A stretch of DNA of 42,811 nt from a virus, in IMG/VR virus record IMGVR_UViG_3300050821_005908, positions 1 to 42,811 of that record; one strand, written 5' to 3'. The translations under genes were made by a program, and so were the position numbers. Positions 252-32,106 of this stretch are shown in pieces. The first letter of the stretch is position 1, and every line of letters begins with the position of its first letter. The notes under the pieces are model-generated. The model searched no databases, was not told where the DNA came from, and worked only from the letters and a program-made list of their open reading frames with translations.

Positions 252-622
252 TGGCAATCGAGATCAGACGATTGCACCCGAGCGAGTTCGATCTGCTGAA
301 GGGCGTGGACGATGGCTTTATGCCCGACCCGGCCAGGTCTATTGCGCTCGTGGCTCAGAACACTACCAGAATACTTGGACGGCTATTCTTGATGGCGCCA
401 TCGCACGTTGAGGGCATTTGGCTCGATCCCGATTGGCGTGGCAGTAATCTATTCCGCGACATGATGAACGCGATGGAGCTTGAGGCACGGTCGGAGGGCA
501 TCAGCAAATTGTTCGCCTACTCCACTCGTCCTGAGATTTGTCACTACCTTGAGCGTCGCTGCGATTACGCCAAATTGCCATGGACTGTTCTGGCGAAGGA
601 GCTACCGTGCCGCCACTCTTAA
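251..622 (+). CDS. GNAT-like N-acetyltransferase fold protein
   Basis: 123 aa starting at the ATG that overlaps the previous stop. The central part, with GIWLDPDWRGSNLFRDMM and then an amphipathic helix ending ARSEGISKLFAYS, resembles motif A and the following strand of GNAT acetyltransferases, where the RG-x-G/N loop contacts acetyl-CoA. The protein is short for a complete GNAT (usually about 140-170 aa) and ends near the C-terminal strands. GNAT-like genes occur near head/tail genes in several P22-like phages, and here it sits in the place occupied by gp14 in P22. Substrate is unknown, and a structural or assembly role is possible. Confidence 0.5.
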   Translation: MAIEIRRLHPSEFDLLKGVDDGFMPDPARSIALVAQNTTRILGRLFLMAPSHVEGIWLDPDWRGSNLFRDMMNAMELEARSEGISKLFAYSTRPEICHYLERRCDYAKLPWTVLAKELPCRHS

Positions 623-1485
623 TCGGAGGCGCTATTTCGGCTGGCACCTCGCTCATTGGCGGGCTGCTAGGGCAATCGGCTGCGTCTAAGGCTGCTGCTG
701 CCCAAGCTGCTGCCAACGCCAAAGCCGGTCAGGTGGTCGGGGCAGCGGGTCAGCAGGCGGTCAATGCGCAAACAGGCCAGATCGCCCAAGAGCGCACGAC
801 CGAGCAACCATACACCAACCTTGGCGCCGGCACCGCTACCACGCTTTCGAACGACCTGGCACCCGGTGGCGCACTCACTCAAGGGTACAGCAGCTTCAGC
901 GCACCCACGGGCGTCAACGAGTCGAACGATCCCGGGTATGCATTTAGGTTGCAACAAGGCCAGAACGCGCTACAGAACTCGGCTGCAGCAAGGGGCGGCC
1001 TGCTCTCAACCGGGACCGCCAAAGCGCTAACCGACTATGGCCAGGGGGCAGCCTCAGCCGAATACGGTAACGTCTACAATCGCGCCCTGCAAACGTACGG
1101 TACCAATTTCAATACCTTCAACACCGGCCAGAACAATCTATACAGTCGGTTGTATGGTGCGACCGCGCTGGGGGCCAATGCTGCCACCTCGCTCAATAAC
1201 GTGACGCAATCGGGCACAGCTAACCTGACGGGCGACATCATGTCCACTGGGCAACAACAGGCGGGCCTGATCGCCGGCACCGGCACCGCTCAAGCTGGCG
1301 GCATCGTCGGCGGGTCCAACGCACTGACGGCTGGCATTGGGGGCGTGGGCAATGCGATTGGCCAAGGTCTGACGCTGCAATCCATCCTGGGCGCCCGCAA
1401 CGCCAGCAACACAAGCGCCCCGACCGTTGCGCCCACCGACCCGTACAATACCAGCAATGGCGGCTGGTCGGGAGTGAATAGCTAA
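607..1485 (+). CDS. Ejection/internal virion protein candidate (gp7-like position), 292 aa
   Basis: The start is GTG 607, because AAGGAG at 596-601 sits 5 nt upstream; a longer frame from 580 would overlap the GNAT-like gene more. The N-terminus is a glycine-rich hydrophobic segment (LLIGGAISAGTSLIGGLLG) followed by an alanine/glutamine-rich helix and then Gly/Asn/Thr-rich sequence. This composition is typical of DNA-ejection (pilot) proteins of short-tailed phages, which leave the capsid and form a conduit across the envelope. Position also matches P22 gp7, the first of three ejection genes. Sequence similarity to gp7 itself is not visible to me, so the role rests on context and composition. 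Confidence 0.6.
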   Translation: MPPLLIGGAISAGTSLIGGLLGQSAASKAAAAQAAANAKAGQVVGAAGQQAVNAQTGQIAQERTTEQPYTNLGAGTATTLSNDLAPGGALTQGYSSFSAPTGVNESNDPGYAFRLQQGQNALQNSAAARGGLLSTGTAKALTDYGQGAASAEYGNVYNRALQTYGTNFNTFNTGQNNLYSRLYGATALGANAATSLNNVTQSGTANLTGDIMSTGQQQAGLIAGTGTAQAGGIVGGSNALTAGIGGVGNAIGQGLTLQSILGARNASNTSAPTVAPTDPYNTSNGGWSGVNS

Positions 1486-3248
1486 TGGCCACACCTCCAG
1501 TCGCGCTAGACATCCGCTCGCCCGCTCAGCAACCTGGCCCGCTGGACCTGTATAAAGAAGGTCTGTCAGTCCAATCGATGATCAATCAGCAGGCGCTCCA
1601 GAAACAGGCCCAGCAAGCCAACGTCACCGCCCAACAATCGAACGACCTGGCGCTCAAACAGCAGCAGCAGGATTCGGACGATCGCGACAAGTTCAACAAG
1701 GTATTCCACGACGCCAATGGCGATTGGGACCAGGCCATCAAAAACGCCCCCGGTGCTGGCGTCAGTGGCCAGGGCGTAATCAAGCTGCAATTAGCCCGGA
1801 CTGACCAGGTGGCGAAAATGGCCACCATGAACAAGGAGCTATTGACCAACGAATCGACCAAGGCTGACCAGTTGGCCAAGGACGCTCAGGTCGTGCTGGC
1901 GGCTGACCCGGACGAGAAACAGAACATCTATGCCAAGCTGCGCAATGGTCACCTGGCTACGGGTGCCTATAGCGCCACCGACCTACCAGTCAATGTCCCG
2001 GCAGACGATGAGTTGAAGGCCACTGTCGCTCATTCTAAAGCGGCCCAGGACATGATTAAGGAAGCGACGGCGCTGCAAGAGCAGAAGGCCAAGTTACCAG
2101 GTGAGCAGGCCGAGTCGACTGCCAAAGGGTATTCGACCGCGGCGCAAACAATGGGCGGCGCGAACGAGCAATTGGGCTGGACTGCGCGACGCAACCTGGC
2201 GGTCAAGAACAATGCCGACATGGCCCAACTGATACCCGAACAGTACTCGCCCGCGGCTGCCGAACAGGTGCGACAACTTGGTATCGCGCCCAAGGACTTA
2301 GCCAATCAGGCACCGGACAAACTAGAGCTGGCATCGTTTCTCAAGAGCCCACCACCGGGCTACAAGGCTACTCCGGTTGAGTTTCTGCGCTACCAAAAGT
2401 CCGTCACGCCGATACTCAATTTCAATCTGTCCAATGCTACTGGCGCCGGCACTGGACCAGGCGGTGGAGCACCCGCCCCGGCTGATGTAGCCAGGCGATT
2501 CGGCATGACGCCCGAAGCATTCGACCAGACGGCCGAAAAATACGCTTCCACTGGAGCAATGCCATCGGTTGGTCGCGGCCCATCCGGTATCGCATTGCAA
2601 CGTGCCATCATGAATCGGGCTGGCGAGCTACACGCTGGCGAATCACTTGCGGCCAATAGCGCCGAGTTCAAAGCCAATCAGTCATCGTTGGGCAATATCC
2701 AAAAGACGTTCGATAACGTTACCGCGTTCGAGAATACCGCTGGCAAAAACTTGGACGTGTTTCTGAATCAGGCCAAGAAAGCAATCGACACCGGCCTGCC
2801 CATCGCCAATCTTCCCGCTCGCTTTGTTGCTGGTAAACTAGGTAGCACCGATCAGGCCGCATTCGAGACAGCTCGCACAACCGCTATAACCGAAATTGCC
2901 AAGGTGCTATCGTCGGCCAACGCCGGCTCAGGTGTCTTGAGCGATGGCGCCCGCCACGAAGTCGAGGGTCTGATTAAGGGTGACGCCACGCTGGGCCAGA
3001 TTATGTCCGCCGCCAACATTCTCAAACAGGACATGGCCAATCGACATGAATCTTACGCTGGTCAGATTAGCGATATTCAAAAACGCATGGGAGCTAAAGC
3101 GCCGCAAACTCAATCGTCAACAGAAACGAATGCTGTACCGCCCAATGTGACTAAGGTGCTATCCGGTGTCGGTACCGGGCGCCACAAGCTCAGCGACGGC
3201 TCAGTCTGGGATAAGAAAGCTGACGGGTCGATAGTGAAAGCGTCGTAA
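1485..3248 (+). CDS. Large ejection/internal virion protein candidate, 587 aa
   Basis: ATG 1485 overlaps the preceding stop by one base (TAATG). The first 100 residues are glutamine-rich and helical (QALQKQAQQANVTAQQS), followed by long Ala/Lys/Gln-rich helices, a Gly/Pro-rich hinge near residues 310-335 (GAGTGPGGGAPAPAD), and another long helical part ending around residue 540. No enzymatic motif is seen. Size, helical content and location in a three-gene set before the fibres suggest an internal virion protein comparable in role to P22 gp20 or gp16. This is inferred from context. Confidence 0.55.
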   Translation: MATPPVALDIRSPAQQPGPLDLYKEGLSVQSMINQQALQKQAQQANVTAQQSNDLALKQQQQDSDDRDKFNKVFHDANGDWDQAIKNAPGAGVSGQGVIKLQLARTDQVAKMATMNKELLTNESTKADQLAKDAQVVLAADPDEKQNIYAKLRNGHLATGAYSATDLPVNVPADDELKATVAHSKAAQDMIKEATALQEQKAKLPGEQAESTAKGYSTAAQTMGGANEQLGWTARRNLAVKNNADMAQLIPEQYSPAAAEQVRQLGIAPKDLANQAPDKLELASFLKSPPPGYKATPVEFLRYQKSVTPILNFNLSNATGAGTGPGGGAPAPADVARRFGMTPEAFDQTAEKYASTGAMPSVGRGPSGIALQRAIMNRAGELHAGESLAANSAEFKANQSSLGNIQKTFDNVTAFENTAGKNLDVFLNQAKKAIDTGLPIANLPARFVAGKLGSTDQAAFETARTTAITEIAKVLSSANAGSGVLSDGARHEVEGLIKGDATLGQIMSAANILKQDMANRHESYAGQISDIQKRMGAKAPQTQSSTETNAVPPNVTKVLSGVGTGRHKLSDGSVWDKKADGSIVKAS

Positions 3249-4627
3249 TGGCTGACGATCTAAGCGTGGTATCGAGTCAACCGTTGCCCGATCTAGCGGT
3301 AGTGGACTCGCAACCGCTGCCGAGCGCAAATACCGGTTTCTGGTCCCACGTTGGCCAGTCTATCAGGTCGATGGCCCCCGACGAGATACCCTCGTTTACT
3401 GACGTTCTAAAGGCCGCTGGCGAATCAACTATGGGTCCTGCTGCCAAGGCCCTAGAAGCTCTACACGGTGCCGCCACCGAGTACGCCGCGGCTCGTCAAC
3501 GAGGCCATGGCGTACCCTACAGTGCAGCAGCAGGCGCGTCTACCGCAGTCGGTGTCTCACCCGAGCGAATGGAGCAGGCGGCCAGCCAGGGCGATACGGC
3601 GGGAGTGTTGGGCGAGGCAGCGGTGCCGACTGCGATAGCGGTTGCACCATTTGGAGTCGAGGGTGCAGGTAGGATAGCCGCTCCGGTAGTTCGGCCAGCC
3701 TTGGAAGCAACCGGACGTGCACTAGCTCCGGCCAAGCCGCAATTGCTTGAGGCAGCTCAGGCAATAATGCATCCGACCGAGATTCCTGGCCGAATCCTGA
3801 AAGCTGCCGTCGATACCATTCCCGACACGCCCGAAGTAATTGCCGCAAAGCAACGAGCAATCGAAGAACAGCAAGGTGCCGACACTCTCAAAGCAATCAA
3901 GATGCAGGATATCGAAGCTAGGCGTGTAGCCAGGCAAACTTCACAACAGCAACGACAGCAGCAATCCCAATCGCCCACATCGACAAGTACGCAATCGCCA
4001 TCACCAATAGTGCAATCATCTTCACCATCTGTCGCCTCCGAAGGTAGACCTGCTACTTGGACTAACGAATCTGTGTTGGCCCGCGCCAGCCAGGGCGACA
4101 TGACCGCCATCCAGCAAGCCCGCCTGCGTTCGCTGCCGCTGCCCGAAAACGCTGGCCTGGTCGGGAACAAGGGTGCCACGATCGAACCTACTGTCGGCAC
4201 CCGCAAAGGTGACATTGTCCATTTTGATAGCGAGGGCAACCCGATCGGGCCAACGCCACCGAAACTTGCGGGCGGCCCAGCCGATTTCAAGAAATTGACT
4301 TTGACCAACCCCGAAGACCAGAGCGATATCGGTATGGGCACCGACCACATTATTCGTGATCCTAACGGCAACCGCATTGGCTCGATCAATATCGAACCGC
4401 CAAAAGATGGTGGAGTTGCGCATGTTCATTGGCTCTCCGGTGACGATCAAGGTACCTTGGGTTCCTATGGCCGTCCTTCGGTCGAAAACGCTATCAAAGA
4501 GCAATATCCTGACACCAAAAAAGTTACTTACGCTCGACGCCGACTTGCCAAGGGTGCCGATGCCGCCACCACGACGCCACGCGAAATGTCTTTCAGGACC
4601 GGCACCAGTTCAGGCAGCCAAGAATGA
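3248..4627 (+). CDS. Ejection/internal virion protein candidate, 459 aa
   Basis: Overlaps the previous gene by one base. The N-terminus carries a repeated VxSQPLP motif (residues 8-14 and 19-25), then an Ala/Gly-rich helical region with possible membrane-active segments near residues 85-150. A polyglutamine/serine linker (QTSQQQRQQQSQSP, then a Ser/Thr/Pro run) spans about residues 230-270. The C-terminal 150 residues form a distinct globular part with many Asp/Gly. Third and last member of the putative ejection set. A hydrolase role for the C-terminal domain is possible but no motif supports it. The 3' end overlaps a small minus-strand ORF by 18 bases. Confidence 0.5.
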   Translation: MADDLSVVSSQPLPDLAVVDSQPLPSANTGFWSHVGQSIRSMAPDEIPSFTDVLKAAGESTMGPAAKALEALHGAATEYAAARQRGHGVPYSAAAGASTAVGVSPERMEQAASQGDTAGVLGEAAVPTAIAVAPFGVEGAGRIAAPVVRPALEATGRALAPAKPQLLEAAQAIMHPTEIPGRILKAAVDTIPDTPEVIAAKQRAIEEQQGADTLKAIKMQDIEARRVARQTSQQQRQQQSQSPTSTSTQSPSPIVQSSSPSVASEGRPATWTNESVLARASQGDMTAIQQARLRSLPLPENAGLVGNKGATIEPTVGTRKGDIVHFDSEGNPIGPTPPKLAGGPADFKKLTLTNPEDQSDIGMGTDHIIRDPNGNRIGSINIEPPKDGGVAHVHWLSGDDQGTLGSYGRPSVENAIKEQYPDTKKVTYARRRLAKGADAATTTPREMSFRTGTSSGSQE

Positions 4628-4931: not shown

Positions 4932-6143
4932 ATGCGATTAGCACGATTACTCGGCTATAGTACCTTGGTCCTGTTCAGCTTGGTACTCGCGACCAGGGCC
5001 AATGGCCAGGTGCAGCCCTCGCCCTATATACCGGGCCAGTATTTCGACGTAAATGGACGCCCATTGGCTGGTGGCTGCATCTGCACCTATGTCAGCGGAA
5101 CCACCACGCCGCTAGCCACGTTCAGCGACGCGGCTGGGTCGGTGCCGAATACTAACCCGGTCCAGCTGGATTCAGCGGGGCGGGCACGGCTATTTCTGCA
5201 AGGCCAAGCCTACACGCTTAAGCTATATGCCCACGGTACGACCAACAATTGCGCCACCTCGCTTGGCCCAATCCAATGGTCGATCGATGGAATTAACCCG
5301 AGCGCGAACTCAATCTTGGGCGGAAATAACGTCTGGTCGGGCACCAATACCTTCAACGGTGCCACCACGTTCAATGGCTCGGTTACAATGAACAGCGGGT
5401 TTACCTCGAACGGCCCATCCAACATGACCGCGGGCGGGTCCATGGCCGGCACGTTCAGCGGGTCACCCTCGTTTAGCGGCTTCCCGTCGTTCACCGGTGG
5501 ATTCGCGTCGACCACTGGGACGTTCTCGGGCCAGATTACGTCGACTGTCGCCAGCGGGACTGCGCCATTTGTCATCGCGTCGACCACGGTTGTGGCTAAC
5601 CTGAATGCCAGCTCGGTTAATGGCTGCACGTTTGCGATCCCATGTCCGCTGGGTAGCACGACGCCCAACACGGTCGCTGCGACTACCCTGACTGCCAATA
5701 GCTTTACGCTGAATGGTGCTGGACCATTTACCGCCGTAGTCGGATTGGATACCAAACTTGTAACCGGGGTGGCGCTCACCGGTCCAATTGGTTCAACGGT
5801 CTGCAAGGATACAAATGGCGGCGTAACAACCGTTGGATGTGCTGGCGGCTTCACGCAAATTCAGGCAGCAGTCATTGCTTCGCCCTGTACACCGCCCTCT
5901 AGCTCAAGCTATGACGCCTGCAATTCGACCGTTACATGGCCGGTGGCGTTTGCCGACACCAGTTATATCGTGTCCTGTACCGCACTAGGCACTGGTTACA
6001 ATGGCGGCGCACCTGGCAGCAATAATTCCAATTTTATCTATGCTCGCAGCAAGGCTACCGGGTCGGCCAGCATAACCGTCCAGAATGGTCGCGGTGCTGC
6101 CGATACCCCGACCGAGATTGACTGTATTGGAGTCCATCCGTGA
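4932..6143 (+). CDS. Signal-peptide-bearing tail fibre-like protein, 403 aa
   Basis: AGGA at 4923-4926 precedes ATG 4932. Residues 1-26 form a Sec-type signal peptide: basic start (MRLARLL), hydrophobic core, small residues before the probable cut (RANGQ). Residues about 34-95 match the widespread phage fibre head domain with the motif YFDVNGRPLAGG and, later, a TTPLATFSDA segment and an NPVQLDSAGRARLFL segment. The rest is Gly/Ser/Thr/Asn-rich beta-repeat sequence typical of fibre shafts, including GTAPFVIASTTVVANLNASS, which recurs almost identically in the next gene. At least eleven cysteines are present, unusual for a cytoplasmically assembled fibre and suggestive of an oxidising compartment. 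Probably an adhesin; whether it is on the virion is unproven. Confidence 0.75.
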   Translation: MRLARLLGYSTLVLFSLVLATRANGQVQPSPYIPGQYFDVNGRPLAGGCICTYVSGTTTPLATFSDAAGSVPNTNPVQLDSAGRARLFLQGQAYTLKLYAHGTTNNCATSLGPIQWSIDGINPSANSILGGNNVWSGTNTFNGATTFNGSVTMNSGFTSNGPSNMTAGGSMAGTFSGSPSFSGFPSFTGGFASTTGTFSGQITSTVASGTAPFVIASTTVVANLNASSVNGCTFAIPCPLGSTTPNTVAATTLTANSFTLNGAGPFTAVVGLDTKLVTGVALTGPIGSTVCKDTNGGVTTVGCAGGFTQIQAAVIASPCTPPSSSSYDACNSTVTWPVAFADTSYIVSCTALGTGYNGGAPGSNNSNFIYARSKATGSASITVQNGRGAADTPTEIDCIGVHP

Positions 6144-8140
6144 TCAAACGATTGGCATTACTGCTATTGCTATCGGCCTCACCTGCTTGGGCACAGTTGC
6201 CCATTCCATCGACCAGTTTCCAATCGGGTGGCAACATCACCAGCGCAAACGCTGCCTGCAACCAGGGCAATTGCGTCCTGATCACGCTACCGGGCAATGC
6301 GACCGTGCTGACCGTAGGTGTAACGGGCACGTTTAGCGCGACGCTGCAACCAGAAGAATCGCAAGATGGCGCCCGCACCTGGACTAGCGCTGGCAGCGCA
6401 ATTACGACCGCGTCAACCGTTTCGTTTACGGTAACTGGCTTTACTAACTTTCGCATTCGGGCATCGGCCTATGTCAGTGGCAATGCCGGTGTCAATATCA
6501 ATGTGTCTGGCGCGACTACCACTGGCGGCGTCACGGCGCTTAACGGGCTGTCTGGCGCGGTCACATTGGCAGCCGGGTCCAATATCACGCTAACGCCAGC
6601 GGGCAACACGATTACGATTGCATCGGCTGGTGGCGGCGCTCCATCTGGGCCAGCGGGTGGCGATCTGACTGGGACCTACCCTAACCCGACTATTGCAGGC
6701 ATAACAGCATCGACTGGGACGATCAATCTGGCAGGTTCGCCCGATATAATTATGCCCAAGTCGGCTGGCTTCGTTCCTCCTGACATTGGCGGCTTCGGGC
6801 TCGACACAACGGCCCATGCCTTCGTCGGTTCACGTGGCGGCGTTGGTGGCAGCGGCATCGTATTCGCCAATTTCGCCGCCGCATTCAGCTTCACCCAGAA
6901 CGATTGCATATCCTACGCGGCGAACGTTGGTAATGGCCAGCTTCAAGACACTGGCGCACCGTGCGGCACCGGGACCGTCACCAGTATCGCCACCACCGCA
7001 CCTATCACCGGTGGCACCATCACCACGACCGGGACTATCGCCTGCGCAACCTGCGTCACCAGTGCGGCGTCGCTGGCCAATGGTGGTGTCGTTCTCGGCA
7101 CCGCTGGCACCCAGGCGACTGCGACCAGTACTCAGCTAACCTTTGTCGCGCCAACGCTCACGGTAGGTCTAGCAGGCACCAGCAGCGGCATTTTTGCGTT
7201 GACCGGGTCAACGAGCGGGCAAGCGACCTTTACCGCGCCCGCGGTGGCGGGTACGACTACCAACGCTGTCGTATCGAGTAACAATATCAGTGCGCCCGCG
7301 TTTGTCTCGACCGTGACCACCGGGACCGCACCATTCGTTGTGGCCAGCACCACCAACGTGGCCAACCTGAACGCATCTAGCTTAGGCGGTGCAACGTTCG
7401 CTGCTCCTGGCGCAATTGGCGGGACGACACCATCCAGTGGGGCATTCAGTTCGCTCAGTTGCGGCGTGCTCAATACGACCTCCTGCATCATCACCGGGTT
7501 TGGCAGCACGAGCGGCACTGCGCTTATCACCTGGCCCGCTGTCGCCGGTACGATCAATAACGCTGTCACCTTCAGCAATGCTATCGTATCATCGTCGGGC
7601 ATCACCGGCACATCGATCACGTCGACGGGCATCGTCAATGCTGCTGCCGCTAGCGCTCTCTGCATTAACGCACGATCGTGCATACGGTCTACTGCCGATG
7701 GCATCATCAGTTTGGATAACAATGCCAATGGTGCTGGCGGCCTCACCCAGGCGGTCTTCGGCTTGATTGGTAACGCGACCAATCCCGAACTATTGATTAG
7801 CGGTCTGAACATGGACGTTCGCCGCGGCGATGGCACCACGGGCGGCGGCACCCTGTCCATCAATGGCGGCACCCCGGTCAAGGGCATATTGAGCGCCACC
7901 GGGACGCTGGCATTCGCCAACCAGGCCGCGATTGGCTGCAACGATCTGACCATCACGGTGACCGGGGCTGCTTTAGGCGACACGGTTAGCATTGGCGTAC
8001 CCAACGGGTCGATTATCAACGGGACCGCCATGTTTAGCGGCTGGGTCAGCGCGACCAATACTGTTACCGTGCGCTATTGCAACTTAGTCTCGGGGCAACC
8101 GGCGTCGGGCACCTTCCGCGCTACGGTGACTCAATTTTGA
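6140..8140 (+). CDS. Signal-peptide-bearing tail fibre-like protein, 666 aa
   Basis: GTG 6140 overlaps the previous TGA. Residues 1-19 are a clear signal peptide (MIKRLALLLLLSASPAWAQ, cut after AWA). The body is a chain of fibre-type elements: GGVTALNGLSGAVTLAAGSN, GPAGGDLTGTYPNPTIAG (about residues 170-190), GTVTSIATTAPITGG, IGGTTPSSGAFSSL, and the GTAPFVVASTTNVANLNASS unit shared with the upstream gene. These motifs are characteristic of phage tail-fibre shafts and collar repeats. The C-terminal domain (LTITVTGAALGDTVSIGVP...GTFRATVTQF) is a compact beta domain common at fibre ends. A receptor-binding fibre is likely, with an unexpected export signal. Confidence 0.75.
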   Translation: MIKRLALLLLLSASPAWAQLPIPSTSFQSGGNITSANAACNQGNCVLITLPGNATVLTVGVTGTFSATLQPEESQDGARTWTSAGSAITTASTVSFTVTGFTNFRIRASAYVSGNAGVNINVSGATTTGGVTALNGLSGAVTLAAGSNITLTPAGNTITIASAGGGAPSGPAGGDLTGTYPNPTIAGITASTGTINLAGSPDIIMPKSAGFVPPDIGGFGLDTTAHAFVGSRGGVGGSGIVFANFAAAFSFTQNDCISYAANVGNGQLQDTGAPCGTGTVTSIATTAPITGGTITTTGTIACATCVTSAASLANGGVVLGTAGTQATATSTQLTFVAPTLTVGLAGTSSGIFALTGSTSGQATFTAPAVAGTTTNAVVSSNNISAPAFVSTVTTGTAPFVVASTTNVANLNASSLGGATFAAPGAIGGTTPSSGAFSSLSCGVLNTTSCIITGFGSTSGTALITWPAVAGTINNAVTFSNAIVSSSGITGTSITSTGIVNAAAASALCINARSCIRSTADGIISLDNNANGAGGLTQAVFGLIGNATNPELLISGLNMDVRRGDGTTGGGTLSINGGTPVKGILSATGTLAFANQAAIGCNDLTITVTGAALGDTVSIGVPNGSIINGTAMFSGWVSATNTVTVRYCNLVSGQPASGTFRATVTQF

Positions 8141-8149
8141 TCTGTGCAC

Positions 8150-9793
8150 ATGCCCACCAAATCAGCAATCGCGTTCATCATCGTCCTGCTCACTAGCTCG
8201 TCCGTCCGGGCGATGACCTGGGCCGAGTCGCGCCCAATCGTGCCCGAGTCCATAGCCGACGTGAGCGATGTGCTGCCGCCCGACCTAGGCCAGACTTGTG
8301 CCTGCTCGCCGCCGCCCATCGTTGTCGGACTGTCACCGTCATTCTTTGGCCTAACCTACCTGTCAACGAGCCATGTTCCCACGGTCCCGTTCAAAATCCT
8401 GCGCATCTGGAACACCAGCTCGCCCAATGCCGCTGGCTGGGTCGGGCTGCAGCCAACGAGTGGCGCCCCCAGCTTCACCGCACTCAATACCTGGCTCGCT
8501 CAGGCCAATGCGAACGGCCAGGACGTGATGTGGACCGCAGGCCGCAATCCACCCTGGACCTTGACCGATGGCGTTGGAACGATTGCGGTCACCAATGGCG
8601 GCTCGGGCTACACGTCGCCGCCCACCGTCACCTTCACCGGGGGTGGTGGCACCGGGGCGAGCGCTACAGCAGTCTTGGGCGGCACCGGGGGGCAGCAGGT
8701 TGTCTCGGTCACGGTCAACATTAGCGGTACCGGGTATACCAGTCTGCCAACGATCGGGTTCACTAGCGGCAGTGGCGTTGGCGCTGCCGGGACCGCGACA
8801 ATGACGACCTGCACTGGCGGTCTATTCGGCACCGGCTGTCCACAACCGCCCAGCGACATCGACCTGGGCGACGCCAAGTGGAAAGCATTCATCACTGCGC
8901 TAGTTACCGACTCGCTAGCCCAGACGACCCACATAAAGTATTACGAGTGTGTCAACGAGTTCGACGCCTTGAGCGAATGGTCTGGCACGATTCAACAGTT
9001 GGTCAAGTTCTGTGGCGACATGGCCGCGATTGTCCACTCGCTCGACCCAGCTGCCCAGGTGTGGGGGCCCTCCAGTTCAACTGGCAACAGCTTCGGCGTC
9101 CACGGCTACGGCGGCTTCCATGGCGGCACCGGCTACATCGCAGCGGGCGGCGACGCAACATACGACGTGATGAACCTGCACAACTACATCTCAGGGTGCA
9201 ACGGCGCCCACCCTGGCAACGTCTGGTGCGACACGCCTGAGGGGATTGGCGGGGCGTCTGGCGGCATTGTCGAGTACATCGCCCAAGCCAAGATCCTGAC
9301 CAACAAACCGATTGGGTTCAGCGAGGGTAGCTGGGGCTGTGATGCCGGCAACACGATCACCGACGCGCTCAAGGTCAGCTTTTTGCTGCGCGACTATCTG
9401 TACATGTATAACGCCGGTATCACCAATTACGTCTGGTACTTTTGGGACACCAATGGCAACCCGCTCAGCAGTTCGTGCGGCACCCTGGCCCCGAGCGATG
9501 TCGCTGGCCCTGCCGCGGTCGCCTTCACCAGTCTACAGGCAGCGCTAGTCGGGTCCACGCACACGGTCAATAGCTGTGTCCACCCGGTCCTGTTGCAAAC
9601 CTGGTCGTGCGACCTGATCCTGACCGGGCCGATACCGGCAACGATAATCTGGAATCCATCGACGCCCACATCGTTCAGCCTAACCGGACCATATGCAGCC
9701 TACACGACCCAGACCAACTTGAAGGACGGCACCACCCAGGCCATCGTCGCCCACTCGGTCACAGCGGACAAGAACCCGATTATGGTGCAGTAA
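8150..9793 (+). CDS. Secreted clan GH-A-like glycoside hydrolase with inserted beta domain, about 547 aa
   Basis: ATG 8150 is preferred (GTG 8144 is possible). Residues 1-22 form a signal peptide. The catalytic barrel starts with LRIWNTSSPNAAGW and WMTAGRNPPW-like strands. The acid/base glutamate is in YYECVNEFD (Glu at about residue 270) and the probable nucleophile in IGFSEGSWGC (Glu about residue 392), the two-Glu arrangement of clan GH-A glycosidases (for example families 5 and 39). Between early barrel strands, at about residues 145-220, lies a beta insertion with two GSGYTSPPTVTF-type repeats. A C-terminal beta-sandwich closes the protein. Likely a polysaccharide depolymerase acting outside the cytoplasm; substrate unknown. 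It is not a recognisable endolysin. Confidence 0.65.
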   Translation: MPTKSAIAFIIVLLTSSSVRAMTWAESRPIVPESIADVSDVLPPDLGQTCACSPPPIVVGLSPSFFGLTYLSTSHVPTVPFKILRIWNTSSPNAAGWVGLQPTSGAPSFTALNTWLAQANANGQDVMWTAGRNPPWTLTDGVGTIAVTNGGSGYTSPPTVTFTGGGGTGASATAVLGGTGGQQVVSVTVNISGTGYTSLPTIGFTSGSGVGAAGTATMTTCTGGLFGTGCPQPPSDIDLGDAKWKAFITALVTDSLAQTTHIKYYECVNEFDALSEWSGTIQQLVKFCGDMAAIVHSLDPAAQVWGPSSSTGNSFGVHGYGGFHGGTGYIAAGGDATYDVMNLHNYISGCNGAHPGNVWCDTPEGIGGASGGIVEYIAQAKILTNKPIGFSEGSWGCDAGNTITDALKVSFLLRDYLYMYNAGITNYVWYFWDTNGNPLSSSCGTLAPSDVAGPAAVAFTSLQAALVGSTHTVNSCVHPVLLQTWSCDLILTGPIPATIIWNPSTPTSFSLTGPYAAYTTQTNLKDGTTQAIVAHSVTADKNPIMVQ

Positions 9794-9809
9794 GTCGAAG
9801 GAGATTAGA

Positions 9810-10475
9810 ATGATCAGACGAATTGTTATCGCGCTCGCATTAGTTTCATCGTTCGGTATCGCATTCGGCTTCGGTCGCGCCCAGACACCGACACCTGCCA
9901 CGGTCACAGTTGCCGCTGGCCAGGACTCGACTTGGCAACCGGTCATCGAACAACTGACCAATCGGATTATGCAGCTCGAGGCCAACGCACTCAAGTCCGA
10001 CCAGTGGCAAGCCTACCTAACCTATCGCATTCAGCTATTGGAAGCAGCCAATGGACTCAAGCCGCCCCCGGTGCCTGGCACCTGTCCTGCTCCTGGTGTG
10101 GTCGCGGCGGACGGGACTTGTGGCTGTCCTGCTCCGAATACAATGGTGAACGGGACTTGCACGCCACCAGGACCACCGCCCCCGCCAACCTGCACACCAC
10201 CCGCCACCTTGATCAATGGCGTTTGCACGACGCCGCCACCGCCAACAGGATCAACCGGATGGTTAGGCAGCGACGTGCTGACCGGCACGCTGGCAATCGG
10301 CTCAACTGTGACAATCAACAAGGCAGGTCCGTTGCGCGATACAGCTTGCACGGTCGCAGGTGGCGCTCTCGGCAATCCTGGCGCAATCCCGGTCGATGGT
10401 ACTGTTGCCAAGGTCGTGGCCGGACCATCGCCGCTGTGCCGAAATACCGTCATCTATTGGCAGGTTCAGTTCTAG
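9810..10475 (+). CDS. Secreted Cys/Pro-repeat protein with coiled coil, 221 aa
   Basis: GAAGGAGATTAGA precedes ATG 9810. Residues 1-25 are a signal peptide (ending GFGRAQ). Residues about 40-90 form an amphipathic coiled coil (EQLTNRIMQLEANALK). Residues about 90-148 are a Pro/Cys-rich region with repeated C-P-A-P-G / NGTC / CTPP units such as MVNGTCTPPGPPPPP and LINGVCTTPPPP. The last 75 residues form a beta-rich domain with two more Cys. The layout resembles an oligomeric extracellular stalk with a head. No family is recognised. It belongs to the run of exported proteins 4932-11492. Confidence 0.6.
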   Translation: MIRRIVIALALVSSFGIAFGFGRAQTPTPATVTVAAGQDSTWQPVIEQLTNRIMQLEANALKSDQWQAYLTYRIQLLEAANGLKPPPVPGTCPAPGVVAADGTCGCPAPNTMVNGTCTPPGPPPPPTCTPPATLINGVCTTPPPPTGSTGWLGSDVLTGTLAIGSTVTINKAGPLRDTACTVAGGALGNPGAIPVDGTVAKVVAGPSPLCRNTVIYWQVQF

Positions 10476-10477
10476 CA

Positions 10478-10753
10478 ATGGTCGTTCGTTATGTTCACGG
10501 TCTTACCAAGCGAGAGCTTGAGGCTGTCGGCCATGTTTGCCGCGGTCTGTGCAACAAAGAGGTCGCATGGGAAATGCATATCTCGCCACATACCGTGCGC
10601 TGCACCCTGGTAAACGTCTACGCCAAGCTGAATATCCATACCCGCTACGAGCTATTGATGTGGGCAATTGATCGTGGCCTATTCAAGCGTAAGGAATTGG
10701 AAGCGGTTGAGCAGCAGATATTCGACGGTGCCATGTCGGCAAGGTTGCAATGA
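10478..10753 (+). CDS. LuxR-type (GerE) helix-turn-helix regulator, 91 aa
   Basis: ATG 10478 follows the previous stop by 2 nt. The whole protein is a GerE domain: LTKRELEAVGHVCRGLCNKE, then AWEMHISPHTVRCTLVNVYA and KLNIHTRYELLMWA, matching the LuxR/FixJ DNA-binding consensus (LTxRExEV, NKEIAxxLxIS, TVKxHxxxIYxKL, xRxEL). There is no autoinducer or receiver domain, so it would bind DNA constitutively or respond through a partner. It lies inside a late-type run of secreted proteins and overlaps the next gene by 4 nt. Candidate functions are late-gene timing or manipulation of host LuxR regulons. Confidence 0.8.
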   Translation: MVVRYVHGLTKRELEAVGHVCRGLCNKEVAWEMHISPHTVRCTLVNVYAKLNIHTRYELLMWAIDRGLFKRKELEAVEQQIFDGAMSARLQ

Positions 10754-11154
10754 CCAAGTCACTCGTTCTGCTTTGGTTGCTATTGACGCCCGCGACGGCA
10801 CTGGTTCCATGCCAAACAAGCGGCTGCCCAGTCGGGTCAACGGTCCACACGATCGCTACCGCCAATGTACGGGCAACGTGCAGCGTCGCAGCAACGATCG
10901 TCAAGACTGAGCCCGCGGGCGCTCAGGCCATAGTCACATCCGGCCCGGTCCCGACCGCTGGCGGCTTCGACTATCTGGGGGTTCGGTTTAGCGATGGCGT
11001 CAGCGGTTGCGTGGGCGATGACAATACAACCTTGGTCACGATCGCACCACCGCCAGCGACGCCACCGGTCTATACGCTTACCGTAGCAAGCGGCGGGGTA
11101 ACTCTTTTCACCGTCACCTGCAGCTCAACGAACGGAGTCTACTCATGCAAGTAA
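10750..11154 (+). CDS. Secreted bacterial SH3-like domain protein, 134 aa
   Basis: Overlaps the LuxR gene by ATGA. Residues 1-18 form a signal peptide (MTKSLVLLWLLLTPATAL). Residues 30-100 look like a bacterial SH3 domain: TANVRATCSVAATIVKTEP, then GGFDYLGVRFSDGVSGCVGD, matching the NVRxxPSxxxxVixtxxxG...WxxVxxxxGxxGWv pattern with Cys in place of Trp. SH3b domains bind cell-wall material in many bacterial and phage proteins. A short C-terminal beta segment with two Cys follows. Perhaps a wall-binding or adhesin accessory protein. Confidence 0.6.
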   Translation: MTKSLVLLWLLLTPATALVPCQTSGCPVGSTVHTIATANVRATCSVAATIVKTEPAGAQAIVTSGPVPTAGGFDYLGVRFSDGVSGCVGDDNTTLVTIAPPPATPPVYTLTVASGGVTLFTVTCSSTNGVYSCK

Positions 11155-11492
11155 TTCGCCTAGCTTTACTGTTATTGTTCTCTGCCACCGTCGCAGCAGC
11201 CCAGACCTCGCACTCGGTCAAAATCACCTGGACCGATACCGTCAATCCGGCTGGTACCACCTACAATGTCTACAAAGCGAACACGAATTGCACCGGGACG
11301 CCCACATTCGTCAAGCTGAACACGGCGCCCATTACGACGCAATCGTACACCGACACCAATGTTGCAGCGGGTACCTATTGCTATAGCGCTACAGCAGTCG
11401 GCCCAGGTGGCGAGTCGGCCCAGTCCAATACCGGGTCAGCCAACGTGCTCGCGCCGCCGAGTGTCATCACTATCACTGTTACGGTTCAATGA
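11145..11492 (+). CDS. Secreted fibronectin type III domain protein, 115 aa
   Basis: ATG 11145 overlaps the upstream gene by 10 nt. Residues 1-20 are a signal peptide (cleavage after VAAAQ likely). The remainder is one fibronectin type III domain: HSVKITWTDTVNPAGTTYNV with the WT and YNVYKA strands, SYTDTNVAAGTYCYSATAVG and GGESAQSN. FnIII domains mediate carbohydrate or protein contacts in phage structural proteins and secreted enzymes. Last of six consecutive signal-peptide proteins in this block, apart from the LuxR gene. Confidence 0.7.
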   Translation: MQVIRLALLLLFSATVAAAQTSHSVKITWTDTVNPAGTTYNVYKANTNCTGTPTFVKLNTAPITTQSYTDTNVAAGTYCYSATAVGPGGESAQSNTGSANVLAPPSVITITVTVQ

Positions 11493-12594: not shown

Positions 12595-12806
12595 CTTGGC
12601 GCGACCAATTCAACTTTCCAACATGGAACCTGGCGCTATGGGTCGTTTGGGCTGCGACGTTCGCGGTCCTAGAGTTCTTGGGCGTCCGCTACCCAGACCG
12701 GTTTGCCACCTTGACCTACCTGTCTAAGCACGCGGTCCCTCGATTCGCCCTGGCCATGTTCCTGGGCTGGCTCGGGTACCATTTCTTGGTGGAGGCGACA
12801 AAGTAA
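12591..12806 (+). CDS. Small membrane protein, 71 aa
   Basis: GTG 12591 overlaps the preceding TGA. Two probable TM segments: ALWVVWAATFAVLEFLGV (about residues 15-32) and FALAMFLGWLGYHFLVEA (about 52-69), separated by a polar loop with YPDRFATLTY. Overlaps the holin gene start by one base, which suggests translational coupling to the holin. It could be an antiholin-like partner, an inference from position only. Confidence 0.55.
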   Translation: MTWRDQFNFPTWNLALWVVWAATFAVLEFLGVRYPDRFATLTYLSKHAVPRFALAMFLGWLGYHFLVEATK

Positions 12807-13294
12807 TGGCGGACATCGGAAAGTTCTTCGGGTCACTGTTCGGTAGCGCGGTAGGTGGCGTGGCGACGCCCGCAGCCAGCATCGTCGATGGCGCCAGTAA
12901 AATAATCGGGCTATTCAAACTGTCGCCCGAGGTCAAGGCCCAACTGCAGGCCCAGCTGACCGCCGAGAATGTCGATATCGAAAAAGCCGAACTGGCGGCG
13001 CAATTGGCCATGGCCCAGGGCCAACTGGATATCAACAAGACTGAGGCCAGCTCAACCTCGGTCTTTATTGCCGGCTGGCGCCCCGCGGTCGGCTGGGTCT
13101 GTGTGACCGCGTTGGCCTATGCCTATGTCGTCCAACCGTTCGCCCAATTCGTTGCGGCCTTGTTCAAAGTGGACCTGACCGCGCTGCCCCGGCTGGACAC
13201 CAGCACCCTGATTGGCGGCCTACTAATTCCGCTGTTGGGCATCGCCACGCTCAGGACGGTCGAGAAAGTTACGGGTACGGAGGGCAATCGCTAA
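12806..13294 (+). CDS. 3TM holin (GTA_holin_3TM-like), 162 aa
   Basis: Residues 1-75 contain a Gly/Ala start and a coiled coil (SPEVKAQLQAQLTAENVDIE). The conserved core is SVFIAGWRPAVGWVCVTALA and the following AYVVQPFAQFVAAL, then a linker and LIGGLLIPLLGIATLRTVEK, matching the 3-TM holin family first described in gene transfer agents (PF11351). Holins form inner-membrane lesions that time lysis. It sits in a chain of overlapping membrane genes, as expected for a lysis cassette, although no endolysin is recognised beside it. Confidence 0.85.
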   Translation: MADIGKFFGSLFGSAVGGVATPAASIVDGASKIIGLFKLSPEVKAQLQAQLTAENVDIEKAELAAQLAMAQGQLDINKTEASSTSVFIAGWRPAVGWVCVTALAYAYVVQPFAQFVAALFKVDLTALPRLDTSTLIGGLLIPLLGIATLRTVEKVTGTEGNR

Positions 13295-17302: not shown

Positions 17303-17521
17303 TCAATACCTCCGCTCCAACTCTGCTCTCCGGTGCCAATTCGCACCATAGTACGACTGTACCGAATGATCGACCCATAGCCCTAGTACTCGCTCACCCT
17401 TATACCGTCTAATCTCGTAGAAGGTACCAGACGGGTGTGTTTCCCATCGCAGCTCATGCGTTACCTTGATGCCTGTCCGCGGATACCCAACCAGGCCATG
17501 TCCGTTCCAGCTTAATCTCAT
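17303..17521 (-). CDS. Hypothetical protein, 72 aa
   Basis: ATG 17521 overlaps the methyltransferase stop by 4 nt. Aromatic, basic beta-rich product (LRWETHPSGTFYEIRRYKGE). No motif is recognised. Translational coupling to the methyltransferase suggests co-expression only. Confidence 0.55.
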   Translation of the reverse strand: MRLSWNGHGLVGYPRTGIKVTHELRWETHPSGTFYEIRRYKGERVLGLWVDHSVQSYYGANWHRRAELERRY

Positions 17522-18498
17522 ATCGCATCTCTTTTGGCGGTCGCAAACAACGGCTCAGTCGAAGCCGCCCAACTTTTCTGTGCTTCAATTACGTTGCGTT
17601 CCGCCTGCCGATAGTACGATGCCTTCAACTCAATCCCGATTGCTTTTCGTCCTGCCACTGTCGCACCATAGACCTCAGACCCGACTCCCATAAACGGTGT
17701 CAGTACAGTTTCGCCAACATTCGACCACAGCACAATCACTCGGTCAATTACATCTAGCTGGAGCGGGTGGACATGTTTTTCGTCGCCAACATCACGCGAT
17801 TGCTTGAACGGCAACACTCGCTCAATCCTGATATCGTCCCAAAACGCCGACGCATATTGTCGCCAGATCCAGTGAGAGTATTGGTTCTCAATCTGCTTGC
17901 CTTTCCAGCCACGGTATTGCAGTACATCGTTAGGTGGCACTCGCTCGCCGGCATATTCAATCAGGCCATCGGGATGTCTGATTGGAATAGTGTTCTTACC
18001 ATTTCTGCGAAACACCAGCAGGTAGTCAGCCGACGCCACGCTACATCGCGACGAGTCATTGACCACGGTCTGGTGAGCCAGGTTCTTGGCCATCGTTCGA
18101 TTGCGAACTCCCAGCGGTTCTTTCCAGATCGCGTATCGGGCAATATAGTGAAAGCCCTCACGCTCGTGCAGGCGAATAATATCGCCAGGAAAGTCCACCA
18201 GATGGTCGGTGCCGCTATTCCCTGACGGTACATCCATACAATGCACCGCCGTCATCCGACCAGGCAATGTCAATCGTGCAATCTCGTGTACAACATAGGT
18301 ATAGTGCTCAAAGAATTGCTCATAGCTATTGCAATTAGATAAGTCACGCTCGCTGCTGGAATAGTGGTACAGACCGGCGAATGGTGGCGAGTAAATGGAC
18401 AGGTGGACACTGGCATTAGGCAAAGTGGCCATGACCTCACAGCAATCGCCCAGGTAGAGCGCATATGACTCGGTGACGATCTGTTTAGCTACAGCCAT
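17518..18498 (-). CDS. DNA methyltransferase, N4-cytosine/N6-adenine type, 326 aa
   Basis: Residues 37-40 are SPPF, the catalytic motif IV of the N4/N6 amino-methyltransferases, preceded by the LYLGDCCEVMATLP strand (motif III-like). The AdoMet-binding motif I, FMGVGSE at about residues 269-275, lies near the C-terminus after HPLQLDVIDR, so the order IV...I identifies the beta-class arrangement. IGIELKASYYRQAERN (about 287-302) follows as the motif II region. No restriction enzyme is adjacent. It overlaps the SF2 helicase gene by 10 nt, a pairing seen in many phages. Probable role is protection of phage DNA from host restriction or regulation of replication. Confidence 0.85.
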   Translation of the reverse strand: MAVAKQIVTESYALYLGDCCEVMATLPNASVHLSIYSPPFAGLYHYSSSERDLSNCNSYEQFFEHYTYVVHEIARLTLPGRMTAVHCMDVPSGNSGTDHLVDFPGDIIRLHEREGFHYIARYAIWKEPLGVRNRTMAKNLAHQTVVNDSSRCSVASADYLLVFRRNGKNTIPIRHPDGLIEYAGERVPPNDVLQYRGWKGKQIENQYSHWIWRQYASAFWDDIRIERVLPFKQSRDVGDEKHVHPLQLDVIDRVIVLWSNVGETVLTPFMGVGSEVYGATVAGRKAIGIELKASYYRQAERNVIEAQKSWAASTEPLFATAKRDAI

Positions 18499-19937
18499 AG
18501 TGGCAGAATCTCTTTCTCGTGGAACTGAATCCGCGTGCTGATTGCCGAATTGTTGACCATGTGCTCGACCAGCTGAGAGAACATTTTGTCAGCCGCCAAT
18601 TGCTTGCGTCGCAGATTAGCCAATACCCCAACTTCGCCCTCAGTCATGATCATGTCGACCGTGACTGGATTTTGTTGGCCAAAACGCCAGCACCGTCGAA
18701 TTGATTGGTAGTATTGCTCAAACGAGTGCGACGGAAACGATACCACATGGTCACAGTGCTGAAAGTTCAGCCCCCACGCACCGATCTTCGGCTTGGTCAC
18801 AATTACCCTAATCTGGCCATTAACGAACGCGGTAAACTTTTCTTCTTTGTCTTCATCGCTATCATTGCCAGCTACCTGCACCGCCCCCGGTATAATTTCT
18901 TTCAGGATATTGCCCTCATCGTTCAGGTGGCACCAGGCCAAGACTGGTCGCTTGGTATCGGCCAATAGCGCCATTTTTTCGCAGCGTTCAATGATGGTGC
19001 GCCGACGTTCTTCCCGTTCTTCTCGCATATTGGTTGCAGGTAACGCGAACAACATCCCCGGTGCCAGTGTGGTCGTCTTGACTGTATGCTCTCGTTCGTG
19101 TAATGCTGGCAAATTGAACCCAGCATCATCGAATCCCAGGTCAGACGGCTTCCGCAGCGCCATAGCCCACGACGCCACCCAACGCCAAAACGGTACCTCG
19201 GCATGGCCCTTAAATCGCCACTCCATTGCTTTACCATACGCTCGCCCGGTGGCGGAATTGTTACGATCGTTCTTGAAAAACCGATTGAGCATATCGGTAT
19301 GGCCCAAGAATCCCAGGGCCTCGCTGCTGGTACCAAGTTCAATATAGTCGTTGGGTGCCGCGGTCGCTGTGGCCAACAGCCGGTAGGGTACCTTGCGCAA
19401 AAAGCTGGTAATTTGCTTGCGGCGCTCGCCGTCGAACGATTTCAATATAGACGATTCATCGCACACCACGCCCTCAAAGTCAGCCGGATTGAAATAGTGC
19501 AATCGTTCGTAGTTGGCAATATTGATTCCGCGATGAACTGTGCCATCGAGTGATCGCTTGCACTCAATGCCAAACTTTTCGCCTTCGCTAACCGTTTGAG
19601 CTCCGACCGCCAGCGGCGTCAGTATTAGCACTGGGCGATTCATATGCCGGACTAGGTTGTCAGCCCACGCCAGTTCCATCACCGTCTTGCCCAATCCACA
19701 ATCCGCAAATTCAGCACTGCGACCTTGCCCGCAGGTCCATTCAATCAAAAACTCCTGAAAGTCGAATAGCGATTTCGGCATTGACCTGACCGGGAACCCG
19801 CCAACGCCAACCGAATGAACTTTACTGGTCAGGAATTTTTTGTAGGTGGTGGCGGGAACAGTGACGACTGGTGCGGTCGCACTTTGGCCACTTTTACCGG
19901 GGCTGACTCGACTTTGGGCTGGACTTGTTCTAGCCAT
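18489..19937 (-). CDS. SF2 (SNF2-like) helicase/translocase, about 482 aa
   Basis: Starts at ATG 19937 (GTG 19955 possible). Numbered from 19937: Walker A ADCGLGKT at about 78-85, motif Ia LILTPLAVG near 104, Walker B CDESS at about 159-163, motif III ATATAAPN at about 189-196. The second RecA lobe has motif V GAWGLNFQHCD at about 386-397 and motif VI QSIRRCWRFGQ at about 411-421. These place it in superfamily 2 near the SNF2 group. It probably translocates on dsDNA during phage replication or remodels protein-DNA complexes. Its tight overlap with the methyltransferase suggests joint function. Confidence 0.85.
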   Translation of the reverse strand: MARTSPAQSRVSPGKSGQSATAPVVTVPATTYKKFLTSKVHSVGVGGFPVRSMPKSLFDFQEFLIEWTCGQGRSAEFADCGLGKTVMELAWADNLVRHMNRPVLILTPLAVGAQTVSEGEKFGIECKRSLDGTVHRGINIANYERLHYFNPADFEGVVCDESSILKSFDGERRKQITSFLRKVPYRLLATATAAPNDYIELGTSSEALGFLGHTDMLNRFFKNDRNNSATGRAYGKAMEWRFKGHAEVPFWRWVASWAMALRKPSDLGFDDAGFNLPALHEREHTVKTTTLAPGMLFALPATNMREEREERRRTIIERCEKMALLADTKRPVLAWCHLNDEGNILKEIIPGAVQVAGNDSDEDKEEKFTAFVNGQIRVIVTKPKIGAWGLNFQHCDHVVSFPSHSFEQYYQSIRRCWRFGQQNPVTVDMIMTEGEVGVLANLRRKQLAADKMFSQLVEHMVNNSAISTRIQFHEKEILPLWL

Positions 19938-20014
19938 AGTTGATATTCGCTCCACAAAATGTACAACGGTACCTTACGTCGCCCAATCTCGCTAATGGTC
20001 CAGTGGTCACTCAT
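19829..20014 (-). CDS. Small hypothetical protein, 61 aa
   Basis: ATG 20014 overlaps the previous stop by 8 nt and the ORF overlaps the helicase N-terminus by about 109 nt. The first half looks like a folded unit (MSDHWTISEIGRRKVPLYIL and WSEYQLWLEQVQ), the second half is a basic, proline-rich tail. The long overlap with the helicase gene lowers confidence, although the first half is not needed by the helicase. Confidence 0.45.
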   Translation of the reverse strand: MSDHWTISEIGRRKVPLYILWSEYQLWLEQVQPKVESAPVKVAKVRPHQSSLFPPPPTKNS

Positions 20015-23878: not shown

Positions 23879-24181
23879 CTAGTCGGGTAACGGGAAGTAA
23901 TCGTCGTCGCCGATGTAATCGATTGGTCTAGGCGGAGTGCTGCCCAGTCCAAACGGGTCCATATAGTTGATCTCGGTCCAGTAGAACGCCCAGTCTATAT
24001 TGCAGGACAGATAGTTGAATGTGGGCGAACTGTTGGGCATGTCGTGCAGCATGTTGGCTTGGCATCCGTACATAAACTGGTTGTAGTTGAAGATGCCATC
24101 AGGTCCTTGGGCTTGCGCAGATGGGGTGAACAAGATGACTGCCAATAACAATGCAGCAATTGCAACTAACCGGGTCAGCAT
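23879..24181 (-). CDS. Secreted hypothetical protein, 100 aa
   Basis: ACGGAGGTAGCCA precedes ATG 24181. A signal peptide spans residues 1-24 (MLTRLVAIAALLLAVILFTP then SAQAQ). The mature part is aromatic and acidic (YNQFMYGCQANMLHDMPNSS, FYWTEINYMDPFG) with two Cys and an acidic tail YIGDDDYFPLPD. Unusual among early-operon genes in being exported. No family is recognised; perhaps superinfection exclusion, by location only. Confidence 0.6.
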   Translation of the reverse strand: MLTRLVAIAALLLAVILFTPSAQAQGPDGIFNYNQFMYGCQANMLHDMPNSSPTFNYLSCNIDWAFYWTEINYMDPFGLGSTPPRPIDYIGDDDYFPLPD

Positions 24182-29590: not shown

Positions 29591-29971
29591 ATGGACCATG
29601 TCTCTAAGGCTCAGAACAGCGACCCATCAGGACCACGCAAGTTTGGTAAGCCATTTGTCAAAGGACAATCCGGAAATCCGGGTGGCAGACCAAAGAAATT
29701 GCACTTCACTAAAATGTGTGAGCAATTGATGCGGTCGAAGGAAGGCAAAGAACTCGTCAAGGAAGTGATGAAGGATATTTTGAATAAACGCGGTATGGCT
29801 GCCGTACTTTTGTTGCGCGAAATTGGTGAGCGCACTGACGGCAAAGTTATTCAGTCGATGGAAATGAGCGGAGAGTTGCAATTGACTTTGGCTGATGCTG
29901 TAGCTAAAGCTCGTACTCGTGTTGATGGACTAAAACTATTACCTGGCGGAATTGATGCTAAGCGAGGCTGA
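29591..29971 (+). CDS. Small terminase subunit-like (DUF5681), 126 aa
   Basis: The N-terminal KFGKPFVKGQSGNPGGRPKK (residues 18-37) is the signature of the DUF5681 family, found directly before large terminase genes and treated as the small terminase. A helical core follows (CEQLMRSKEGKELVKEVMKD, RGMAAVLLLREIGERTDGKV). It would recognise the packaging site and load the large terminase. It overlaps the large terminase gene by 17 nt. P22 gene 3 is the positional counterpart. Confidence 0.75.
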   Translation: MDHVSKAQNSDPSGPRKFGKPFVKGQSGNPGGRPKKLHFTKMCEQLMRSKEGKELVKEVMKDILNKRGMAAVLLLREIGERTDGKVIQSMEMSGELQLTLADAVAKARTRVDGLKLLPGGIDAKRG

Positions 29972-31454: not shown

Positions 31455-31699
31455 TCGTGGCGATCACCAGTCATACCGAACGTATTGCCCTGATGGTCAA
31501 ACGAGCAATGGCCAAAGCCCATATCAACCAGGCCGAACTAGGCCGGCGCATGCACACCAGCCACGGCACTGTTTGTCGCTGGGTCAATGGCGAGGGCAAT
31601 ATGAAGGTGGAGACGCTATTCCGCATCCTCGATGCATGCGACCTCGAAGTGGTCGAGTTGCAGGTGCGGCGCAAACTAGCCCCGATCGAGGCCACGTGA
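31445..31699 (+). CDS. Xre-type HTH regulator, 84 aa
   Basis: ATG 31445 overlaps the terminase end by 10 nt (GTG 31457 possible). The HTH is ALMVKRAMAKAHINQAELGR then MHTSHGTVCRWVNGEGNMK, with helices 2 and 3 as in Xre/Cro proteins (Q-x-E-L-A...S-x-x-T-V-x-R-W). C-terminal helix VETLFRILDACDLEVVELQV may dimerise. Probable transcriptional repressor of this phage; the operator palindromes near 26,000 are candidate sites. Confidence 0.75.
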   Translation: MGLIVAITSHTERIALMVKRAMAKAHINQAELGRRMHTSHGTVCRWVNGEGNMKVETLFRILDACDLEVVELQVRRKLAPIEAT

Positions 31700-31884: not shown

Positions 31885-31887
31885 CCA

Positions 31888-32103: not shown

Positions 32104-32106
32104 CTG

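Follow-up and report, generated by a model that had tools for sequence, protein, structure and literature searches.

Spike and fiber proteins with predicted Sec signal peptides in a P22-like phage genome

The 42.8-kb stretch of DNA analyzed here (42,811 nucleotides, hereafter the window) is one whole virus record, IMGVR_UViG_3300050821_005908, and its predicted genes indicate a short-tailed phage with a P22-like structural module. Between positions 4932 and 11492 it carries a cassette of six plus-strand genes for spike, fiber, and other virion-type proteins, each predicted to begin with a Sec signal peptide. The usual view is that tailed phages complete their assembly inside the cytoplasm. Export of these virion-type proteins into an oxidizing compartment, which an earlier note on this DNA had suggested, is well supported by sequence comparison because the signal is conserved across divergent relatives, is placed exactly before domains that are N-terminal elsewhere, and is tied to paired cysteines. 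The observation is also larger than the earlier note stated, as the gene after the major capsid gene is likewise signal-bearing.

The spike protein and its N-terminal extension

The first cassette gene (4932-6143, + strand) encodes a spike or fiber protein of 403 amino acids, predicted to be exported, with full-length signal-bearing relatives in the viral loci L018 (56% identity) and L028 (51%). An AGGA stands before its start codon. The putative signal peptide, MRLARLLGYSTLVLFSLVLATRANG (4932-5006, + strand), recognized from the sequence and its homologues, is followed by a P22-type tailspike head-binding domain with a cysteine pair, GGCIC ... NNC (5007-5306, + strand). The protein consists of a 25-residue extension joined to a domain that starts at residue 1 in all aligned relatives from phage records. 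Eleven such relatives have the head-binding domain from residue 1 and no signal; eight are isolates with named hosts, and the set includes Rhodoferax P26218 and Xanthomonas PBR31, whose copy is annotated as a tail spike.

An alignment-based AlphaFold model of the domain (74 rows; predicted local distance difference test, pLDDT, 85) aligns with the head-binding domains of three tailspikes, those of Pan3, Pam1, and P22, both in Foldseek (E 5.5e-5 to 1.7e-3) and in VIA (Z of 11.1 for Pan3, 10.2 for Pam1, and 9.0 for P22), so the predicted mature N-terminus coincides with the usual start of a P22-type docking domain. A single-sequence fold of the 4932 protein was uninformative (pLDDT 38). A Pfam search gave no family match for the body of the protein; among relatives, a pectate-lyase-like domain is found above cut-off in L239 and below it in L240. 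P22-type tailspikes are classed as cytoplasmic proteins without a signal, whereas a signal precedes the domain in the window and in other viral loci.

In the closest relative (L018, from IMGVR_UViG_3300047497_000064), a 494-bp tandem repeat (L018:4848-6272; 2.9 copies, 99% identity) covers the 5' part of the spike gene, including the signal and most of the head-binding domain. This repeat may represent truncated spare N-termini ahead of the full gene, or an assembly error.

Signal peptides across the window

Signal peptides were scored with a home-made three-region model, trained on 39 Escherichia coli signal peptides, that recovered 34/39 cleavage sites in leave-one-out trials. The six open reading frames (ORFs) lie where the earlier note had placed them, and signal prediction with this model upheld five of their N-termini directly: 6140 scored 24.8, 8144 scored 11.9 (11.4 from a start at 8150), 9810 scored 9.9, 10750 scored 12.8, and 11145 scored 16.0. 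The N-terminus of the 4932 protein scored 2.6 on its own and is accepted as a signal because the homologues L018 and L028 carry better-formed signals at the matching position. As a null set, 4,398 segments were taken from the interior of proteins encoded in the window; of these, 1.3% score 10 or more and 0.3% score 12 or more. For at least five of six N-termini, at 1.3% each, p is about 2e-9, and a chance origin of the cassette signals was rejected on these grounds. Outside the cassette, only three of 60 called ORFs reach 9.5: a minus-strand ORF at 23879-24181 with a score of 24.6, 37805 with 17.6, and a third, overlapping ORF whose reality is doubtful. Counted with the six of the cassette, the signal of the gene that follows the capsid gene (37811) is the seventh, and that of the small early minus-strand gene at 23879-24181 the eighth. 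The signals have the features of Sec and signal peptidase I substrates: a positive n-region, a hydrophobic h-region, small residues before the cleavage site, and no twin-arginine motif. An artefact of a single genome was also rejected, given the signal-bearing relatives in the viral scans and in Acidobacteriota genomes.

The N-termini might instead be hydrophobic segments used in virion assembly, or the products of wrongly chosen start codons, and the home-made predictor and low 4932 score leave some room for such an explanation. It is nonetheless very unlikely, in view of the textbook n/h/c structure in many divergent relatives, where a Q recurs at the cleavage point behind small residues, the retention of a signal whose own sequence diverges, the pairing of cysteines, and a signal in 52/53 members of a second family (37811, below). 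A wrong or internal start was rejected in particular, as none of 24 signal-bearing forms has a Shine-Dalgarno-supported start at or near the domain boundary. The same count weighs on the idea of a dual fate, by which an inefficient signal or a second start would leave part of the protein in the cytoplasm and create both virion-bound and secreted pools. Such a division would suit the weak 4932 signal score and the GTG at codon 27 of the window gene, exactly at the domain boundary, but the cysteine pairs suggest that the exported form is the folded form, and a dual fate is judged improbable.

The remaining cassette genes are all on the plus strand. The second (6140-8140) encodes a predicted exported fiber-like protein of 666 amino acids with the signal MIKRLALLLLLSASPAWA; it overlaps the preceding stop codon, and the protein has a segment in common with the 4932 protein. 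The third (8144-9793, with a start at 8144 or 8150) encodes a large protein, predicted to be exported, with an inserted repeat domain known from virion structural families (PHROG matches to residues 140-225). A predicted exported Cys/Pro-rich protein of 221 amino acids with eight mature cysteines (9810-10475) is followed by a small one of 134 amino acids with six (10750-11154), and by an FnIII-like protein of 115 amino acids (11145-11492), also predicted to be exported, that has a signal-bearing relative in contig G001 (L100). Several domain readings offered earlier fared less well than the signals. The fiber shafts rest on repeat motifs and relatives, and the FnIII domain at 11145 on a weak match in the Protein Data Bank (PDB) to an Fn3-like protein (E 0.0015); Pfam and PDB sequence searches gave no support for a glycosidase in the 8144 protein or an SH3-like domain in the 10750 protein. 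The cassette does hold six signal-bearing genes, although they are not strictly consecutive: a small ORF with a LuxR/GerE DNA-binding domain (10478-10753, + strand; Pfam E 1.4e-12) lies between the fourth and the fifth.

Paired cysteines in the head-binding domain family

The earlier suggestion that several cysteines fit an oxidizing compartment is supported in the window, in the head-binding domain family, and in the family of the post-capsid gene. Mature signal-bearing proteins of the window contain about 2.5 cysteines per 100 residues; in nine structural and packaging proteins outside this group the figure is about 0.6. In both families, the mature parts display the disulfide-type cysteine pattern of Sec substrates. 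The head-binding domain was found at 160 loci in two scans of viral contigs; the majority of these begin 3-5 residues ahead of the domain, while a minority have a signal directly before it. Among 96 dereplicated rows, isolates and bacterial genomes included, at least two cysteines lie within the domain in 26/32 signal-bearing forms versus 1/64 signal-less forms (Fisher p 1e-16, a value that ignores shared ancestry); some signal labels (e.g., L044, L062, L132, L138, and L208) were set by eye and not blind to the cysteines. The sole signal-less form with at least two cysteines is that of Shewanella phage X14. In the usual pair, one cysteine lies on a strand (GGC.FTY or LCTY) and the other in a loop (NC[AS][ST]G); other layouts include PC.GC.

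The conservation profile of the domain is alike with and without a signal (Spearman 0.89 over 91 columns), which argues that the docking domain has not decayed in signal-bearing forms. Mapped onto a first tree, the signal label changes at least three times; on a second tree, with cysteines masked, it changes at least once, and seven times on the best tree. The tree of this 100-residue domain is poorly resolved and gives no count of independent gains of the signal. Since 100 columns are too few to resolve it, a phylogenetic pairs test of signal versus cysteine was without power.

A second signal-bearing family behind the capsid gene

Directly downstream of the major capsid gene (36568-37803, + strand; PHROG 283, E 1.5e-61) lies a gene for a conserved protein that is predicted to be exported (37811-38608, + strand). 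Among 53 dereplicated relatives in viral contigs, 52 carry a signal and 50 adjoin a capsid homologue, directly downstream of it. The number of mature cysteines is even in all 52 signal-bearing members (four in 34, six in 12, two in 3, and eight in 3), and gain and loss of cysteines by pairs is, as a sequence pattern, that expected of disulfide-bonded exported proteins. In two related phages, G004 and G008, a signal-less protein whose N-terminal part resembles this family stands directly after the capsid gene (L106:3651-4307 and L109:11162-11827). These phages with a signal-less post-capsid protein have signal-bearing spikes; the split between forms with and without a signal thus occurs in the second family too.

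Related cassettes and their hosts

The earlier note had proposed to look for such a gene order in other phages, and runs of signal-bearing genes occur in several viral contigs. Four signal-bearing genes follow in a row from the spike onward in G004, three precede the terminase in G002, and further runs occur in L018, L076, and L062. Contig G001 has four or five between terminase and portal (L100:14984-18158, equal to G001 34984-38158), plus others; with this run, signal-bearing sets are seen in the head module too. Among the coding sequences checked, the isolates PBR31, P26218, and phiAX1 each have one signal-bearing gene near the tail genes (L006:9139-9948, L005:8676-9185, and L009:12712-13677).

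Bacterial genomes were sampled from the phylum of a Bryobacterales metagenome-assembled genome and from a class sample that overlaps with it. In these Acidobacteriota genomes, all nine copies that match the domain well carry a signal, eight by score and one (L208) by eye. A 446-kb host-genome contig has a signal-bearing spike behind ejection genes (L234), and a 6.4-Mb contig has three signal-bearing genes in a row (L231/L232). In four members, the 16S gene aligns with that of E. coli along 1.2 to 1.5 kb at 76-77% identity, which excludes Gammaproteobacteria for those members. A record named 'Nevskia soli' by NCBI was accordingly not accepted as a gammaproteobacterium; its class sample overlaps the Bryobacterales phylum sample, the 16S identity of the four members is 76-77%, and it is read as Acidobacteriota. 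Host assignment relies on record titles, overlapping group samples, and 16S identity, and it concerns the relatives rather than the window's own host. Isolate phages served as the comparison set for Pseudomonadota, and eight isolates with named hosts in that phylum have the domain without a signal. The profile for the genome search was built from signal-bearing forms; a signal-bearing query on phage records still returned the same signal-less isolates, so the profile does not exclude signal-less copies.

Genome layout

Across the contig ends, the genes run from a head and hub module (29952-42749), encoding TerL, portal, scaffold, major capsid protein, and a gp10-like hub, through ejection-type genes (580-4627) to the signal-bearing cassette (4932-11492) and a holin (12806). 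The portal, coat, gp10-like hub, and ejection genes expected of a P22-like module are all found in the window. Three plus-strand genes in the place of ejection (internal) proteins (580-4627; the first matches PHROG 598) lie directly upstream of the spike gene, as in PBR31. The gp10-like head closure or tail hub protein (40635-42749, + strand; PHROG 578, E 3.6e-83) is the presumed docking partner of the spike and is encoded in 10/10 related contigs searched; viral scans with the gp10-like protein and the 6140 protein as queries gave no matches. Downstream of the cassette, the lysis module includes a holin of the GTA_holin_3TM family (12806-13294, + strand; Pfam PF11351, E 2.8e-17). Phage records gave no close DNA relatives of the window; the relatives found there include Rhodoferax P26218, Xanthomonas PBR31, Thalassomonas BA3, Vibrio VvAW1, and several Manatee Spring genomes. 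No repeat common to both contig ends was found; the record may therefore lack a gene located after gp10 and before the ejection genes.

Three further loci were noted. A GNAT-type acetyltransferase-like ORF lies beside the ejection genes (221-622, + strand; Pfam match slightly below cut-off), with a similar ORF in the same place in L017. Adjacent genes encode a DNA helicase and a DNA methyltransferase (17518-19955, minus strand). The methyltransferase has a further match, to the end of the helicase/methyltransferase family PHROG 16, and the pair may represent a split fusion. The small protein of 23879-24181, mentioned above, has a very strong predicted signal peptide.

Proposed assembly in two compartments

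Of the three explanations offered in the earlier note, the best fit is maturation in the periplasm with docking at lysis, since a P22-type docking domain is retained in the exported 4932 protein and a gene for a gp10-like hub is present in the phage. Under this model of two-compartment assembly, capsid, hub, and ejection proteins would be made in the cytoplasm, while spike and fiber proteins and the post-capsid protein would be made with cleavable Sec signals, exported, and disulfide-bonded in the periplasm. Once its signal is cleaved off, the 4932 protein would begin, at about QVQPSPY..., as an ordinary P22-type head-binding domain does. Holin and lysis genes would then open the cell, spike-less particles would meet periplasmic spikes, and docking of these spikes on the gp10-like hub would be the last assembly step. 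P22 spikes join last, and they can be added to spike-less particles in vitro. Docking is suggested by this precedent together with the kept head-binding domain, the hub gene in 10/10 contigs, and the window's lack of any recognized signal-less fiber or receptor-binding candidate, a search limited by open contig ends where such a gene could be missing. Cleavage, periplasmic folding, and docking are all steps deduced from these comparisons, and the model as a whole is given an even chance. A broader proposal is held with slightly less confidence than that: P22-like soil phages infecting Acidobacteriota may have a lineage-wide, obligatory extracytoplasmic stage, in which receptor-binding spikes and a capsid-linked protein are exported by Sec, acquire periplasmic disulfides, and are added to the particle no earlier than lysis.

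Several observations count against these proposals. The spike signal of the window is weak on its own score, shared ancestry is only partly allowed for in the link between signal and cysteines, the domain may be conserved for its folding or trimerization instead of docking, and the 9810, 10750, and 11145 proteins have no docking domain. In addition, at least two chromosomal copies in Acidobacteriota (L233:14628-16358 and L239:2683-4863) have no phage neighbors in the stretches read, which implies that the protein may work without a virion; possibly both have been domesticated as secreted enzymes.

An alternative keeps the earlier idea of a secreted adhesin or depolymerase set alive: the proteins would be exported and never enter virions, acting as free depolymerases, adhesins, or decoys, with the head-binding domain serving for folding or trimer formation only. 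Progeny might benefit from a thinned polysaccharide matrix, or occupied receptors might exclude other phages. Orphan signal-bearing copies in Acidobacteriota chromosomes, one of them (L239) with the pectate-lyase-like domain, and the several cassette members lacking a docking domain suit this alternative, as does WceF of Pantoea stewartii, a purely secreted enzyme with a P22-like head domain (PMC7949094). However, the window phage would then have no evident receptor-binding protein, unless its gene is missing at the open contig ends; the signal-bearing spike gene stands right after the ejection genes, like the virion spike gene in PBR31; and one signal-bearing family keeps a fixed position immediately downstream of the capsid gene. 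Free secretion, the main rival, is considered less likely than two-compartment assembly and a good deal more likely than a dual fate.

The occurrence, in a widespread group, of one spike docking domain in cytoplasmic and in exported, disulfide-bonded forms makes it testable whether phages can take receptor-binding proteins from another compartment. If two-compartment assembly is true, it would explain how disulfide-stabilized spikes are made, and it bears on phage host range and on how polysaccharides are broken down in soil bacteria that grow poorly in culture. Should the secreted-protein alternative be true, phages with sets of secreted polysaccharide-active proteins would likewise be new for phages within the literature searched.

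Comparison with known systems

The spikes of P22 (gp9), Pam1, and Pan3 share the head-binding domain fold with the 4932 protein, but the window spike differs from them in the Sec signal before the domain and in the added cysteine pair. Known P22-type spikes, these three included, are cytoplasmic products that lack a signal peptide. The PBR31 tail spike and P26218 gp26 have a homologous head-binding domain (about 40% identity) and a similar gene order; unlike the window spike, their domain begins at residue 1, with neither signal nor cysteine pair, and each has one signal-bearing neighbor gene among the coding sequences checked.

No description of exported phage spikes was found in the open-access literature searched, and to that extent the earlier statement that no such system has been described holds for phages. 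It needs to be qualified by two partial precedents: a signal-bearing phage esterase, PBR31 gp40 (PMC10975493), and WceF of Pantoea stewartii, a tailspike-like bacterial enzyme acting on exopolysaccharide that has a twin-arginine translocation (Tat) signal before its P22-like head domain (PMC7949094). WceF resembles the window spike in combining an export signal with a P22-like head domain. It differs in being an enzyme of a bacterial exopolysaccharide locus, not phage-encoded, with a Tat signal, and in being one protein rather than a cassette; the window signals show no twin-arginine SRRxFLK motif and lie in a phage structural locus. The host Sec pathway is also used by signal-anchor-release (SAR) endolysins, spanins, and superinfection-exclusion proteins, which act in lysis or exclusion and are not spikes with a docking domain. 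The window cassette resembles these systems in its predicted use of the host Sec pathway and differs from them in encoding spike and fiber proteins with a virion-docking domain.

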